Below are positions 38,734-45,045 of a stretch of DNA of 64,000 nt, piece after piece; within the stretch, counting starts at the first letter, position 1; the number at the start of each line of letters is the position of its first letter. The notes under the pieces were generated by a model, which was given only the letters and a program-made list of their open reading frames with translations, made no database searches and was not told the origin of the DNA. The position numbers and the translations under genes are program-made. Source of the stretch: Methylobacter sp. (GTDB taxonomy: Bacteria > Pseudomonadota > Gammaproteobacteria > Methylococcales > Methylomonadaceae); NCBI GenBank assembly GCA_028716975.1, contig JAQUOU010000005.1, positions 1 to 64,000 of the forward strand, written 5' to 3'.

Positions 38734-40077
38734 CTAAATTAAATCGAAGGTCATCGGCACCCTGAAATTAAGTGTAACGTCTTGGGCATCATCCGTTGTG
38801 CCTATGCCTAAAGATAAGTTGAAAGTGGTTTTGGGGGAGTATTTGAACGAATAGCCCACCAAGAGTTGCCCGATATCCAATGTACTCCCCTTAATTGATC
38901 TTCCATTAACTTGAGAATCTAAAACATGCTTGTGCGAGTAACCTAAACTAAATGATGATCGCTCATTAACACCGAACCCCATACCAAAACTTATTCCAAG
39001 TGTATCGCCTGGATTAACCTTACCTATGCTTGTACTGGTTTCGGCATTGAAACTATAGCTAAGATTACCGAAAAATACCGCCGGATCCGTTGGATATAGC
39101 GCTGTTATACTGGGCTGGACACTGAAGTATCCGGCTCCTGTCGGCAATTCGGTTGGAAATGTTGCTCCAGGAACCCCTTGCGCTTGGACGAATTTAACCT
39201 CAAAGGGGCTTTTTCCCGTGGGCGCAGTTGCAACTATATTGCCAACAAGGATAGGCCAGCCGCCGGATCCAGTGGTAAGCTGGTAGCGTCCGGCGAATTC
39301 AAGATCGCCAATACCATTCCCGGTTGCATTGAAGGTTTCATCAACGCCTGCGCCAATACTTACCGGCCGTGAGCGTTGGGTATCAGAACGGTATACATAA
39401 GGGACTCTGAACTCCAGTTCCAGACGATCCGTCACCCCATAACGAGCCCCCAGAGTGCCAATAAAACTGTGCCGTTTAATTGCGCGAACATCTATGAGCC
39501 CAATGGCAATAGCAGGGAGAAATGTAAATGCATCGAGAAATACCCGGTCGTTACTGGTGTAGGCATATAACATGGACGGTTCAACAACAATTTTCCCTTT
39601 TCTGGTTAACACGCCGCCCACGGTATCGCTTAATCTGGGTATTTCCGGTGGCCGTGGTTTTTCTGTTGCTCCGGGAGGCGCCTGACCAACAGGCTTGGAA
39701 GGAAGTGGTTTAGGCAATGTTGACGGCTCATTGTTATCATTAGCCGAAACGACTTGAGGTTGACTTGATGCCTGTTTGACTGGCGCCTGTTTATTCTCTG
39801 CGGCTTGATTTGTCAAAGCATCAAGGCGCAATTTTAGTCGTTCCAGTTCTTTACCTTGCTTGGCAATAATCTGCCGTTGTAGTTGAAATTCCTTTTGCTG
39901 CTCGGCCATCAGTTTCTTATAATCCGCCAGAGAATTATTTTGCCTGCCAGTTTCCGCATAACTCCTGTTCACAAAAAAGACGCAACAGATAATAATGACT
40001 CCCTTAATAGCCCTCAATAGAAGAAGTTCTCCGCTCTCAAATTTCGTCTTCATATTATTATTTTCTTTTTTAGGCAT
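38734..40077 (-). CDS. fapF: FapF-like outer-membrane amyloid secretion pore
   Basis: A signal peptide (ends near NRSYA) is followed by a coiled-coil (about 50-95: LMAEQQKEFQLQRQIIAKQG...), a Pro-rich linker (about 125-160) and a C-terminal region of alternating polar/aromatic beta-strands (GARYGVTDRLELEFRVPYVY, FAGRYQL, LSYSFNAETSTS, LGYSHKHVL, LVGYSFKYSPKT) ending in a strand with terminal hydrophobics. That is the layout of Pseudomonas FapF: N-terminal trimerising coiled-coil, gating linker, 12-strand barrel. It is the last gene of the operon, 410 bp after the fapE-like gene. An internal ATG at 40053 may be the true start. Identification rests on architecture and on the C39 and repeat-protein neighbours. 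Confidence 0.75.
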   Translation of the reverse strand: MPKKENNNMKTKFESGELLLLRAIKGVIIICCVFFVNRSYAETGRQNNSLADYKKLMAEQQKEFQLQRQIIAKQGKELERLKLRLDALTNQAAENKQAPVKQASSQPQVVSANDNNEPSTLPKPLPSKPVGQAPPGATEKPRPPEIPRLSDTVGGVLTRKGKIVVEPSMLYAYTSNDRVFLDAFTFLPAIAIGLIDVRAIKRHSFIGTLGARYGVTDRLELEFRVPYVYRSDTQRSRPVSIGAGVDETFNATGNGIGDLEFAGRYQLTTGSGGWPILVGNIVATAPTGKSPFEVKFVQAQGVPGATFPTELPTGAGYFSVQPSITALYPTDPAVFFGNLSYSFNAETSTSIGKVNPGDTLGISFGMGFGVNERSSFSLGYSHKHVLDSQVNGRSIKGSTLDIGQLLVGYSFKYSPKTTFNLSLGIGTTDDAQDVTLNFRVPMTFDLI

Positions 40078-40488
40078 CAGATTAATAGCAATTAAATTCC
40101 CTATATGGTCATTTAGGATTGCACTTATGAGTTGAATGTAAGTTTATTGCGTGGCTTTTATACACAAATAAAAGACTTCCTGAAAAAAGACATACGTGAA
40201 CAGATAAACCATTCCCTTAAGTGTATGAGTTATTAAGTTTATCAGGACAATAATAGTAGAAATCCATTTAGGTGGCAGGTTGTTTACTGGTTAATAAAGG
40301 GATTTTTTACAACATTACTTAAGAAACCTTGTACAAATCAGTTCCGCCAGGATGTGTGTCCGGTGTAAGACTATAAATTTTCAAGATACCGGTTTTGCGG
40401 GGGAATAACTCAATGTGGCTTATCAGGCTTTAATTTAACAACACTACGCCCCGGAGTGAATAATTATTAACCACTCTCTTGAATTCAA
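40078..40488. other. Gap between fapE-like and fapF-like genes
   Basis: About 410 bp with stop codons in all frames and no recognisable gene, repeat or terminator. The length is unusual inside an operon and could hold a separate promoter for the fapF-like gene. Confidence 0.45.
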
Positions 40489-40989
40489 TTAATGAGTGTT
40501 AGGCTGGATCAAGTTATTAAAAACCATGCTGCTATTATTATTTAAGTCTAAATTTTTTAAGTGACTGACAGCTATGTTAATATCAGTAACCGTTCTAATC
40601 ATTTGATTGTCCAGGTTATTCTGGATAACAGAACCCAATCCTGACAATGCTAAATCCGGAGCTTGATTCAGATTTCCGTTCTGAATCAATGAAACATTGC
40701 TCGGTAATTGGAAAAATGAGGAAGAAACTACCGCGCCATTCAAAGAAGTGATTCTCTCTAAACTAAAATCGATGCTCATTCCGTTTAATAGTACAAACCC
40801 GCCTCTTAATTGATCCAACTCACTGTCAGAGGCGCGCTCCCATTTGTCAAATCGATGGGCGGCAATGTTTGAGAGTTCATCCGCTAATGCCTGACAGGCA
40901 AAGCCGGAACCGCCCCCAACTACCATCCAGAATGCAGCATTCATGAGTTTCCGGTAAACGTTAACTTTATATGCTTTCACGTTAAACAC
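40489..40989 (-). CDS. fapE: FapE-like secreted protein with double-glycine-type motif
   Basis: 166 residues. A hydrophobic segment (about 19-36) serves as signal or anchor. Next comes ASDSELDQLRGG (about 53-64), very close to the LSxxELxxIxGG leaders cleaved by C39 peptidases, then FVLLNGMSIDFSLERITSLNG and a C-terminal part with GLGSVIQNNLDNQMI and TDINIAVS. That last segment resembles the C-termini of the two other secreted proteins of the operon. Pseudomonas FapE occupies the same place between fapD and fapF. Exact role in fibre assembly is not established. Confidence 0.65.
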   Translation of the reverse strand: MFNVKAYKVNVYRKLMNAAFWMVVGGGSGFACQALADELSNIAAHRFDKWERASDSELDQLRGGFVLLNGMSIDFSLERITSLNGAVVSSSFFQLPSNVSLIQNGNLNQAPDLALSGLGSVIQNNLDNQMIRTVTDINIAVSHLKNLDLNNNSSMVFNNLIQPNTH

Positions 40990-40998
40990 TCCACTTGA

Positions 40999-41718
40999 TT
41001 AAAAATCCCAGCGTCCGGGTTGCAACATATTGAATTGACCTAAACTGGCTCGATCAACAGCAGAACCTAATGGCGCTTTGACCCGAAGCGCCCACTCTTG
41101 CTGATCTTGAAAATGCCTCGCCGCTACATCCTGTTTGTCATGGATTAAAAATAGAATACGATTCTTCCACATTTCTTCAAACTCATCCCGGGGTATTACT
41201 TTTATACCTACAGCGGGATCTCCCACCAGAACTTCCCGCTCATTGAGTCCTTTAATAATAACGAAATGCAAGTAACCTTTATTATTGATAATAGTGATCG
41301 CCGGCACATTGGCTGTAATCAATTGATCTAATTTGATCTTGAAACCATCGGATCGATAGCCGCGTCTTTCCAGATAAAGTTTTATATCCAGTAACGAAAA
41401 CCCCTGCTTTTGAATCTTCTGTTGATCGCCATTTTTATACATATCAACAAATACGGTTTGCTCGTCTACTAGATCGTCATAGTGAAAGGTAAGTAGGCTG
41501 GCCAAAGTTGCCGAACCGCAACTGAAATCGAACTGTTGCTTGTATACAGTCTTGAATCGTCGCTCTAAAAAACTGGTCACGGGAACGTTGTAGTTACCGC
41601 CACCCGCAATGCCATCTAAGTTGAGGGAACCTGCATTGATACAACATGCAGGTAGCATCATAAGAATGCATTTAGCAAAAAATCGTATCATGTCGCATTT
41701 CCACTCATTAATATCCAT
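40999..41718 (-). CDS. fapD: FapD-like C39-family cysteine peptidase
   Basis: Papain-like C39 peptidase with an N-terminal export signal (about 10-30; ATG 41691 would start it directly). The oxyanion Gln and catalytic Cys are in KQQFDFSCGSATLASLL, the His in YLHFVIIKG, and the Asp in VLVGDPAVG, so the triad is complete. There are no transporter domains, as in Pseudomonas FapD. The gene start overlaps the stop of the preceding 120-aa protein gene. Its likely substrates are the operon's secreted proteins bearing ELDxxRGG-like motifs. Confidence 0.8.
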   Translation of the reverse strand: MDINEWKCDMIRFFAKCILMMLPACCINAGSLNLDGIAGGGNYNVPVTSFLERRFKTVYKQQFDFSCGSATLASLLTFHYDDLVDEQTVFVDMYKNGDQQKIQKQGFSLLDIKLYLERRGYRSDGFKIKLDQLITANVPAITIINNKGYLHFVIIKGLNEREVLVGDPAVGIKVIPRDEFEEMWKNRILFLIHDKQDVAARHFQDQQEWALRVKAPLGSAVDRASLGQFNMLQPGRWDF

Positions 41719-42080
41719 TAAGGCATTATCGTTACACTCACTATAGTCGAATCTTGAATGATAACGTTGTTACCGCTGTTTTGAATAACGCTGGTAATGC
41801 CACTTGCCTGTGTAAATGAGCCATGATCGATAATGTTGTAACCATTAACATTATTGTTTGCTTGATTGTCAGTCAGCGTAGCACGTACATTTTGGTTATT
41901 AAGGGTAAATATATCTACGCCTTCACGACCCCGCGCATTATCCAGCTCTTCTTGCAACACTATTTCCGCCGGAGAAAAAAGCAGCTTATCCTGATTTTTA
42001 GCAGAATCAGCGTTTGCCGCCTGACTTTGCATAATGACTGCCAGTAGAGTTATAAAGCAGCTCTTTAAAATCCTTCCCAT
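41718..42080 (-). CDS. Small secreted protein of Fap-like operon
   Basis: 120 residues with a signal peptide (about 1-24, cleaved after ANA). LQEELDNARGREG (about 43-55) resembles the ELDQLRGG motif of the FapE-like protein. A segment rich in Asn and beta-branched residues follows (NQANNNVNGYNIIDHG), then the C-terminal block ASGITSVIQNSGNNVIIQ and STIVSVTI. The last block is shared with the amyloid candidate (GITQTFQNSGSGLAQQ) and the FapE-like protein. It could be a FapA/FapB-type chaperone or nucleator. The stop codon overlaps the fapD-like start. Confidence 0.6.
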   Translation of the reverse strand: MGRILKSCFITLLAVIMQSQAANADSAKNQDKLLFSPAEIVLQEELDNARGREGVDIFTLNNQNVRATLTDNQANNNVNGYNIIDHGSFTQASGITSVIQNSGNNVIIQDSTIVSVTIMP

Positions 42081-42183
42081 AACATCCTCCTCACATATTT
42101 GATAATGTGCCAGTTAAGAACCGGCGAGTGATTTCTCACTCACCGGCAAACTGAAATCTATTAACCAATACAGTTAATAAGCC

Positions 42184-43047
42184 TTAAGGCGCAATAGAGG
42201 CACTGCCTTGGGTAACGGTTACAGTACCATCCACTAATACGGATTGTTGTGCTAAACCACTACCTGAGTTTTGAAAGGTTTGAGTAATGCCCGCGTTGCC
42301 AACAATCGAGTGATCGATACTATTGCCAAATGGTATTGAGGCCAGTAGCGAACCATCGCTTGGTAAACCAGCAGGACTACCGGTGACTGAACCCTCCAAA
42401 TATTGATTGTTGACTTTGTAGGTGCTAGTAGCGGCACCGTTAGCTGAAACAGCATTACCATAGCCTTTGGCATCTGCTTCGGCACTAGTGTAAGTTGAAG
42501 TTGCTGAACCCGCATTAGATGTTGCAGCGCCATCGCCCTTGTTATCGGCTTTGTTGTTGTTACTATTTTCTGTTTTAGTGATAGTTTTGGTGTTGTTGCT
42601 ATCTTCTGTTTTAGTGATAGTTTTAGTGTTATTTGAAGTAGCGCTACCATCACGACCAACAGATGCTGCCTGATCTTTAGCTTTTGCTTCGCTATCATTT
42701 TTAGTGATAGTTTTGGTATCAGTATCAGTTTTGGTAATAGTTTTGGTGTTATTGCTATCATCTGTTTTAGTGATAACATCATTATCATTTTTAGTGATAG
42801 TTTTGGTATTGTTACTATCTACCGTTTTTACACTGTTATTTGTATCAGTGTTGGTTTTAGTAGTAGTATCAGAAATAGCACCGATTGTAGAAGTACCCCC
42901 TCCTTGAATTGAAGAGTTTCCTTGACCTTGGCTTTTTGCTGCGACATCAACATCAACAGCTATTGGATCCAGTGCCCATGCACTGGAAGCTGAACCCAAA
43001 GCAAGAAGAATACTTGCGGTTAATATATTTTTATTAAATTGTTTCAT
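42184..43047 (-). CDS. Repeat-rich secreted protein, candidate amyloid subunit (FapB/FapC-like)
   Basis: 287 residues. A signal peptide (1-25, SSAWA-LD) is followed by a low-complexity region (about 55-170) built of imperfect SNNTKTITKT units, rich in Thr, Asn, Lys and Asp. A Gly/Ala/Ser-rich segment comes next (ATSTYTSAEADAKGYGNAVS), then a C-terminal region with IDHSIVGNAGITQTFQNSGS and VDGTVTVTQ. The alternation of polar and beta-branched residues and the position as first gene of a C39/pore operon suggest the structural amyloid. Pseudomonas operons have two subunits, FapB and FapC; only one is seen here. No cysteine after the signal peptide is apparent. Confidence 0.6.
   Translation of the reverse strand: MKQFNKNILTASILLALGSASSAWALDPIAVDVDVAAKSQGQGNSSIQGGGTSTIGAISDTTTKTNTDTNNSVKTVDSNNTKTITKNDNDVITKTDDSNNTKTITKTDTDTKTITKNDSEAKAKDQAASVGRDGSATSNNTKTITKTEDSNNTKTITKTENSNNNKADNKGDGAATSNAGSATSTYTSAEADAKGYGNAVSANGAATSTYKVNNQYLEGSVTGSPAGLPSDGSLLASIPFGNSIDHSIVGNAGITQTFQNSGSGLAQQSVLVDGTVTVTQGSASIAP
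42545..42850 (-). repeat. Coding tandem repeats in the amyloid candidate
   Basis: At DNA level TTAGTGATAGTTTTGGT and close variants recur about eight times, corresponding to the TKTITK peptide. Units are of unequal length (about 21-39 bp), separated by variable ND/DS/EN spacers. Such arrays can expand or contract by slippage and may vary between strains. Confidence 0.75.
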
Positions 43048-43405: not shown

Positions 43406-43570
43406 TCAGATAACCCCTGTTAAGCGGGTCATAGCGATATAGGAGAAGATTTCAGGGGGGCAAGACTTCGTCAACTTTACTGCGGCGGCGATTGTGGTTC
43501 AGCCAAGCGAAAGTTCGCTCAACAACCCAAAAACGGGGTATCAGCTTGAACCCTTTTTTGATTATCACTT
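43406..43570 (-). mobile_element. IS5-family transposase C-terminal remnant
   Basis: On the minus strand the frame reads [20 protein letters not shown] and RSKVDEVLP, the C-terminal DDE-region signature of IS5-type transposases, then after a small frameshift [16 protein letters not shown], which matches the usual ending (IYIAMTRLM). Only about 55 codons remain, and no inverted repeats are recognised. An old IS scar in the regulatory gap of the Fap-like operon. Confidence 0.8.
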
Positions 43571-44110
43571 CTTAAGCTGTCGAGAACTTTTACAGCTTTA
43601 AGTAAAAACCGACAAATTACAATATCATAGTATATATAAATCAATATCTTATATAAATTAGCATGATTTTTGCTTGTTCTTCAAACTAAAGTTTTCACTT
43701 TCATGGCCAAAAAAGTGAGGCAGAAATATTTGTTTGGGGAGTTACTCTTTTACATTGAATCTCTTCAATATTACCCATCCAAAATTCATATCTGCATCCT
43801 AAGTTTTAACCTCAAAGTTGATAGCTTTAGCGGGAAGCGGCTTAGCGTGGACATTACGGATTTTCAATAGCGGCAGTTATATTTTCTGATAATATCGAGG
43901 CAAGAAAAAATCATTTAAATAATAAAAACCGAGGATTAGCAATATCGGAATAGACATGAGGATTTCTGGGAAGAACCCAGTTCGCGATATAGCAATAACT
44001 TTTTTAACCGGGCTTGTGCAAGAAACAATGAATATTTTCTGCCATGAGCTCTTATGATTTTTGTAGAGAGTTGAATTCGTTATGTAAAAAACTTACTACA
44101 TGGATAGGAA

Positions 44111-44117
44111 AAGGAAG
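44111..44117 (+). promoter_or_regulatory. Shine-Dalgarno that decides the regulator start
   Basis: AAGGAAG with its AGGA core six bases from ATG 44122. The upstream in-frame ATG at 44044 has no such site, so the shorter protein is preferred. Confidence 0.7.
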
Positions 44118-44121
44118 TATT

Positions 44122-45045
44122 ATGACTACAAATTTTTGCATCTTACTGGTTAGTGATAACCCATTTCATTTGGGTTTATTAAAAGGGTACTGCCATGTTC
44201 ATCACTATACGGTAATAGCTGCCGATTCAAAATCAATAAGTACAATAACTGAAGTTCCATCGGATCTAATTTTATTGGCATTAAATTTAACTCTGGACTG
44301 GACGAACAAATTTGATTTGGATTTAGTTCAGGAAATGAGCGTACACCATAAAAGCCCGGTATGTTGCATACGGAACATTTATGATACTAGTGGACTAGTA
44401 AAAGACATTGAGTCCTGGATTGATAAATTTCTAGATTCTCCGCTGGATATTAATCAACTGGATGACTATATACGAGGGAAATTTAGTCATTTGCAACGCT
44501 TTATTAAAGACCAAAGGAATCAGAAAAGGCGAGTTGTTAATGACCGTAGAACTATCCTGGTTCATCGGCCTAATGCAGATAGCTATCCTAAGCAGCTATA
44601 TGATGATACTTTAACAAAACACAACAAGGAATATCCCTTCAAGGTTGGTCCATTCCAGATTGATCCGAGATCTAAATCCGTTCTATTATACGGAAAATCT
44701 ATCGATTTGACGCGTAAGGAATTTGAGCTTTTTGAGCTACTTGCTAAAGATGTTGAGCGAGTATTAAAAGTCGATGAAATTATTCAACATCTTTGGCCGG
44801 TAAATAACCGGGCAACCAAATCCGATCTTTACCAATACATGTATTTACTCAGAAAGAAAATCGAGAAAGACCCGAATAATCCACAATGGATTTTGACTAT
44901 TAAAGGATTTGGCTACAAATTTAATGTGTCCATGACTGATAATATAAAAGATAACCATACTTCAATTCATTGCAAAGTAGAGGATGCCCCATTTGATTTA
45001 CTTAACAGTGATTATATAAACTCTCTGTATATGACAAGAAAATAA
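44122..45045 (+). CDS. OmpR/PhoB-type winged-helix regulator with degenerate receiver domain
   Basis: 307 residues. Residues 1-120 have a receiver-like pattern (FCILLVSDNPFHLGLLKGY, DLILLALNLTL), but the phospho-acceptor Asp that follows DLILL is Ala and the acidic pocket near the start is reduced to SD, so phosphorylation is unlikely. A linker rich in basic residues follows (about 145-165), then a C-terminal winged helix (about 190-275: FELFELLAKDVERVLKVDEI, IEKDPNNPQWILTIKGFGYK). AAGGAAG at 44111-44117 sets ATG 44122 rather than the in-frame ATG at 44044. It is divergent from the Fap-like operon and a natural candidate to control it. Confidence 0.8.
   Translation: MTTNFCILLVSDNPFHLGLLKGYCHVHHYTVIAADSKSISTITEVPSDLILLALNLTLDWTNKFDLDLVQEMSVHHKSPVCCIRNIYDTSGLVKDIESWIDKFLDSPLDINQLDDYIRGKFSHLQRFIKDQRNQKRRVVNDRRTILVHRPNADSYPKQLYDDTLTKHNKEYPFKVGPFQIDPRSKSVLLYGKSIDLTRKEFELFELLAKDVERVLKVDEIIQHLWPVNNRATKSDLYQYMYLLRKKIEKDPNNPQWILTIKGFGYKFNVSMTDNIKDNHTSIHCKVEDAPFDLLNSDYINSLYMTRK

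Follow-up and report, generated by a model that had tools for sequence, protein, structure and literature searches.

Does a cluster of five genes on a Methylobacter sp. contig encode a functional amyloid system of the Fap type known from Pseudomonas, and is it an ordinary member of that family? The cluster lies in the window, the 64,000-nucleotide stretch analysed here (positions 1 to 64,000 of contig JAQUOU010000005.1, assembly GCA_028716975.1). Its five open reading frames (ORFs), designated P1, P2, D, E and F, are all open across 43047–38734 on the minus strand, where the initial annotation had placed a five-gene operon; coordinates below are on that strand unless stated otherwise. P1 and P2 are separated by 103 bp, P2 and D overlap by 1 base, D and E are 9 bp apart, and E and F 411 bp. 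The order P1-P2-D-E-F is not the six-gene order ABCDEF (with fapA optional) of canonical Fap operons. The evidence presented here makes it rather probable that this operon serves export and assembly in a sister clade of Fap, working by the mechanism proposed below. A Fap-like mode of action taken by itself is fairly likely, and the sequences indicate that the system is not a canonical member.

The gene farthest downstream, F (38734–40077), encodes a 447 amino acid (aa) outer-membrane pore that is a homologue of FapF. Its best sequence matches by phmmer are FapF chains in the PDB (E-values 7e-33 to 7e-32), and among NCBIfam models FapF (E-value 1.3e-45, 155.9 bits) ranks above FilC (1.5e-18, 67.3 bits). 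The AlphaFold2 model of F, with a mean predicted local distance difference test score (pLDDT) of 77.8, has a long helix at residues 47–93 corresponding to the FapF coiled-coil region (39799–39939; pLDDT 85–91 over residues 51–90), an unstructured linker, and a barrel of predicted strands at residues 162–445 (38743–39594). The predicted fold has the coiled coil and 12-strand barrel of FapF. FapF chains occupied ranks 1–18 in a Foldseek search with the model (TMt 0.79–0.85; 0.83 to 5o67/5o65). VIA aligned it to FapF structure 5o65 with a Z of 30.5 and a root-mean-square deviation of 1.9 over 266 residues, compared with 25.9 and 2.4 over 245 residues for the COG4313 channel 4rl8. The pore had been annotated as FapF-like, a reading to be dropped if a non-Fap family matched better; predicted structure and profile match agree with it, and sequence search, NCBIfam, Foldseek and VIA all rank FapF first.

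D (40999–41718) encodes a 239-aa cysteine peptidase of the C39 family and is homologous to FapD. PF03412 (E-value 5e-19) is its sole Pfam domain above the cut-off, with no ATP-binding cassette (ABC) domain. The NCBIfam FapD model (5.2e-39, 133.8 bits) scores above FilB (2.7e-33, 115.5 bits), and the curated cut-offs of FilB and FilC, 475 and 630 bits, are far above the 115.5 and 67.3 bits reached in the window. Residues Q61, C67, H151 and D167 are invariant among 11 aligned sequences, as expected of an active C39 enzyme given the roles of these residues in the family. D is a FapD-like C39 peptidase, as had been claimed, and its catalytic residues are intact. As a standalone protein with a signal-like start, it would be expected to work in the periplasm once exported by Sec.

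The pore also places the operon within the family. Pore matches were found in 41 of 201 genomes of the same family and 35 of 369 of the same class, and the 80 named loci referred to below are the best 80 of 590 confirmed matches. The tree built here comprises 60 pore rows. Of these, 32 with the P1-P2-D-E-F layout, the window among them, group together on a single branch at 98/99 support; four of them (marked B?) were assigned by the tree alone, the full operon not being seen there. Outside this branch lie the canonical Fap (13 rows), FapF2 (12 rows) and Fil (two rows) pores. F is therefore not inside the canonical FapF clade but in a separate, well-supported one in which P2 and E flank the C39 gene, and the earlier guess that this is a distinct variant holds. 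All but one of the 80 named loci have P2 (79) and all but three have E (77), and the P2-D-E order recurs in most of them; P2, D, E and F were found jointly in 14 of 39 stretches from relatives. The position of F is less fixed: among the 80 loci, 41 have it downstream and on the same strand and 23 downstream but on the opposite strand; in 9 it lies upstream, and in the remaining 7 the stretch covered showed no F. Canonical loci (L103–L115) have the order A-B-C-D-E-F, with a three-repeat FapC in those read. Genome G212 carries a canonical operon (L109) and one of the P1-P2-D-E-F type (L219) on the same contig, which argues that these are two distinct systems.

The branch is widespread. Among the named loci, taxa with the system include Methylobacter, Methylomonas, Nitrosomonas, Colwellia, Ralstonia, Luteimonas and Geobacteraceae, and in a sample of 398 genomes from the phylum a P2 profile matched 14. 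Within the same genus, genome G003 (L071) retains remnants of the operon, namely short pieces of P2 and D and a stop-containing pore fragment, so close relatives can lose the system. In G155 (L073) the sole trace is a pore fragment with two stops.

The candidate fibre subunit is P1 (42184–43047), a 287-aa protein with an open frame and a signal-peptide-like start. The initial annotation had taken its Thr/Lys/Asn/Asp-rich part for the fibre repeat and P1 for the single amyloid candidate, one repeat protein in place of FapB plus FapC. The Thr/Lys/Asn/Asp part, residues 26–212 (42412–42972), is instead a variable hydrophilic linker. It is poor in hydrophobic residues (12% VILFYWM, versus 28% in the C-terminal repeat), includes a 36-bp DNA repeat in 2.2 copies at 42550–42630, and varies strongly even between close relatives, with the signal and the C-terminus of P1 conserved. 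The Fap-like repeat is C-terminal, residues 213–277 (42217–42411); a profile of P1 and P2 C-termini, which includes the window P1 and P2, matches P1 once (E-value 9e-13).

P2 (41718–42080) is a small secreted protein of 120 aa, a candidate minor subunit, and E (40489–40989) is a secreted protein of 166 aa with a C-terminus like that of P2. Neither these two nor P1 matched any Pfam or NCBIfam family above noise, and a Pfam scan of 52 E relatives gave a single match, PASTA. A hidden Markov model (HMM) of the canonical repeat, made from 32 repeats of 13 canonical proteins, exceeded the 95% level of shuffled sequences in 53 of 80 P2, one of 16 P1, 2 of 78 E and 8 of 81 D proteins. It matched none of P1, P2 and E in the window, so profile–profile comparison was used instead. 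The hhalign profiles took P2 sequences under 200 aa and E sequences under 260 aa, with P1 and E sequences outside set length limits excluded. By hhalign, P1 aligned to P2 with an E-value of 1.5e-9, E C-termini to P2 C-termini with 3.8e-6, P2 C-termini to the canonical FapB/C repeats with 4e-5 (P2 residues 60–119, 41724–41903), and P1 to the canonical repeats with 0.005. In each of these four comparisons none of 60 column shuffles scored as well. The shuffles were made on gap-trimmed columns because scores on gapped columns were odd; with gapped columns, 2 of 40 shuffles beat the real score both for P1–P2 and for E–P2. A search of the window genome with the P2 profile found only P2 itself and a weak place inside E (E-value 0.002).

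P2 shares the repeat of P1 and, to judge from these alignments, E probably does as well, so the operon is not limited to a single amyloid candidate. Nor does one protein replace FapB plus FapC: P1 and P2 each have a single related repeat, and E resembles P2 in sequence. The label FapE-like given to E is supported by its place, its leader motif (below) and its P2-like C-terminal half, and not by any family match.

An upstream P1 with the repeat was found in 64 of the 80 loci, the other 16 having no P1 match. In 60 of the 64 every P1 has one copy, and these single-repeat proteins range from 133 to 1105 aa with a median of 458 (n = 69). The other four have 9–22 copies (L166:3229–5436, L172:155–5467, L176:36–3305 and L177:157–5469). 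The P1 proteins of L172 and L177 are alike, both 1770 aa, yet one record is titled Alphaproteobacteria and the other Anaerolineae, a discrepancy suggestive of misbinning. Four loci (L119, L157, L162 and L183) have an E with a long N-terminal fusion; in L119 and L162, whose sequences were read, the fused part is a membrane helix and a coiled coil, with the RGG/RAG site deep inside. A separately encoded, secreted coiled-coil protein precedes F in L121 and L122.

A leader motif is conserved in E. Soon after its signal-like start, the window E reads ASDSELDQLRGG (residues 53–64, 40798–40833) followed by F, with the FapD cut predicted between them, after G64. This segment contains LDQLRGG. The pattern Lxxx-RGG occurs in 74 of 77 E proteins, compared with 163 of 7700 shuffled E sequences and 2 of 80 D proteins. 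Across 52 aligned E sequences just three residues never vary, R62, G64 and N124, and L58, G63, G70 and Q123 hardly do. In the low-confidence structural model a predicted helix at residues 55–61 stops at the leader site. P2 also has a leader-like motif, EELDNARGREG (residues 44–54, 41919–41951), in which L46 is invariant among 49 P2 sequences. Among 79 P2 proteins, 31 have Lxxx-RGG, 7 another GG form and 25 RGxG or RGxxG (RGREG in the window), so that 63 match one of these three G-G-type patterns; 9 have L...RA and 7 none.

The same place in canonical FapE holds a related motif. Lxxx-RG[RK][YF] was found in 13 of 13 canonical loci by an all-frame scan, a procedure that favours finding the motif (the ORF in L115 is at 211–1086, away from the pore). 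The initial FapE pattern had missed or misread L106, L107 and L115 and omitted L109 through wrong frames or choice of start. Lxxx-RG[RK] also occurs in 8 of 8 Pseudomonas-like loci of genus g302, which is taken to be Pseudomonas and in which 21 of 25 genomes have a FapF scoring above the NCBIfam cut-off. The window E shares with canonical FapE an Lxxx-RG motif near its start, a feature identified in this work and not in earlier publications. A second, distant FapD/FapF pair (FapD/FapF2; L054–L069) adjoins small secreted proteins with bacteriocin-type leaders, of the forms VTAG, VSAG or TEGG in 11 of 15 loci. In L060 this second pair immediately precedes P1-P2-D-E, so that two export systems stand in tandem.

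These motifs bear on the substrate of FapD. Rouse et al. (2017, PMC5557850) report that the active-site cysteine of FapD is required for FapC secretion and that mass spectrometry of FapE gave no peptides from the first ~70 residues; in that paper Fap proteins are said to lack canonical C39 sequences, and GG motifs in FapE are noted. A 2018 review (PMC6173800) states that the substrate of FapD has still to be identified; it also describes fapD-fapF pairs from five further phyla. FapE as a candidate substrate is prior work; the present analysis contributes the conservation of the leader, the RGG variant in this branch, and a second candidate, P2. The comparison of branches points to the leader in E and FapE as the substrate of FapD. 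The open-access literature searched yielded no publication describing this branch or the RGG/RG[RK] leader of E/FapE, subscription papers being mostly outside the search.

Compared with the Pseudomonas-type Fap system (fapABCDEF; FapF structure 5o65), the window operon has a homologous pore and C39 peptidase with E between them, Fap-like repeats, and a leader-like motif at the matching place in E. It differs in lacking fapA, in having one repeat each in P1 and P2 rather than three, in the RGG of E versus the RG[RK] of FapE, in the additional leader-like motif of P2, in its separate FapF clade, and in giving no match to the canonical repeat HMM. The Fil system of Acinetobacter (FilA, FilB, FilC) likewise has a C39 peptidase adjoining a FapF-related barrel. 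In Fil locus L126, the protein in the presumed FilA position has a leader-like motif behind a signal-like start, as E does here. The FapF and FapD models outscore FilC and FilB on the window proteins, the Fil pore is outside the clade on a long branch, and L126 has additional proteins not seen in the window operon. Plasmid p12SAAs474 of Acinetobacter sp. SAAs474 (L125) encodes a C39 peptidase and a short, 290-aa FapF-like barrel, with several small secreted proteins sharing a common ELSRQEMKDTQGA leader; this is possibly a minimal system. ABC transporters with a C39 peptidase domain cut leaders of the double-glycine type, and the window operon shares their peptidase family and leader type. Unlike theirs, the peptidase here is a standalone protein with a signal-like start, and the exit is an outer-membrane barrel.

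In the mechanism proposed, all five proteins would leave the cytoplasm through Sec, as their signal-like starts suggest. In the periplasm the FapD-like peptidase would recognise Lxxx-R-G-G just behind the signal peptide of E and the looser leader of P2 (RGREG here), and would cut both after the glycines, a step to which the near-invariance of the motif, the catalytic residues and the co-occurrence of the genes point. P1, P2 and E would then cross a trimeric pore, given the homology of F to FapF. Outside the cell, P1 may stack through its single C-terminal Fap-like repeat, with P2 and E as minor or starter subunits. As each P1 has a single repeat, every chain would supply one rung of the fibre, which would be densely coated with hydrophilic, fast-changing linkers. 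Both amyloid formation and leader cleavage by this operon are what we infer from sequence.

Several observations weigh against this reading. The link between P1 and the canonical repeats is weak (hhalign probability 7%), E gave no hhalign signal against them (54 of 60 shuffles were as good), and the failure of the canonical-repeat HMM extends to all three window proteins. The bit scores of D and F, 133.8 and 155.9, are far below the curated NCBIfam cut-offs for FapD (330) and FapF (700). At the leader site, 3 of 77 E proteins have RAG at the RGG position and 16 of 79 P2 proteins (the L...RA and motif-less ones) have no G-G-type pattern, and the confidence of the E model is low (pLDDT 64). One row of the tree labelled as belonging to the branch, L124, fell outside it; there a wrongly chosen ORF with no pore match had been used.

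Three other explanations were weighed. The operon might export a non-amyloid surface adhesin or pilus-like protein, as suggested for Acinetobacter Fil, P1 being a disordered adhesive brush whose C-terminal repeat merely targets it to the pore. The predominance of hydrophilic linker in P1 would suit this, its conserved C-terminus could serve as an export signal, and the FilC (1.5e-18) and FilB (2.7e-33) models do match. The better scores of the FapF and FapD models argue otherwise, and a repeat that P2 has in common with P1, that resembles the Fap repeat and that reaches 9–22 copies in the P1 of four relatives would be odd for a targeting tag; we regard an adhesin as rather unlikely. Less probable still is an ordinary canonical Fap operon with diverged subunits, P1 being FapC and P2 FapB in swapped order. 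Here the peptidase-E-pore order is identical, P2 resembles the FapB/C repeats, and a single-repeat FapB in Vibrio is reported by Dueholm (2013, PMC3792158). The separate FapF clade, the presence of both operon types on one contig of G212, and the single repeat in place of three all speak for a distinct system, as does the leader-like motif of P2, none being seen in the canonical FapB proteins listed; FapB and FapC mostly have three ~39-residue repeats, and P1 has one. A bacteriocin or signalling-peptide export locus, to which the C39 family and the G-G-type leaders would be suited, is very improbable and was rejected, since the peptidase is a separate 239-aa protein with no ABC domain, the products are large repeat proteins and the pore is of the FapF type. 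The reading of the initial annotation is thus retained for the peptidase, the pore and the distinct variant, and set aside for the single amyloid candidate and the replacement of FapB plus FapC.

Divergent from the operon, a 333-aa winged-helix regulator is encoded on the plus strand at 44044–45045 (PF00486, E-value 2e-19) and is a candidate for the operon regulator. It is of OmpR type, with homologues near the same operon in 20 rows of the related loci searched; by eye, its N-terminal half is receiver-like and lacks the usual aspartate. In L116, L118 and L120 a regulator that by eye looks sigma-54-dependent is directly upstream of the pore gene. At 43455–43553, in the long gap that precedes P1, is a fragment resembling the end of a transposase (PF13586, E-value 0.02, below the cut-off) with a stop right behind it. 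Promoter and terminator scans were at chance level (14 seen and 14.2 expected; 4 seen and 4.7 expected), and an Rfam search gave 0 matches.

A common rule may hold for a large group of systems: Sec export, a periplasmic cut of a bacteriocin-type leader, and passage through a FapF-type barrel. Its members would be canonical Fap (FapE, RG[RK]), this branch (E and P2, RGG), the second FapD/FapF pair (VTAG, VSAG or TEGG) and Acinetobacter Fil, with the leader specificity of FapD switched between branches and with one-repeat subunits here, unlike nearly all Fap fibres. We judge the chances of this generalisation to be about even. A match to the canonical repeat HMM was a requirement in a GTDB survey published in 2025 (PMC12392863). 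As that profile misses P1, P2 and E, surveys requiring the repeat would probably skip the branch, and this one probably passed it over. The near-invariant RGG of E exposes the matching RG[RK] site in canonical FapE, and the two sites make the position of the cut directly testable. The natural one-repeat subunits with their hypervariable linkers would be useful for establishing the minimum number of repeats in a functional amyloid.

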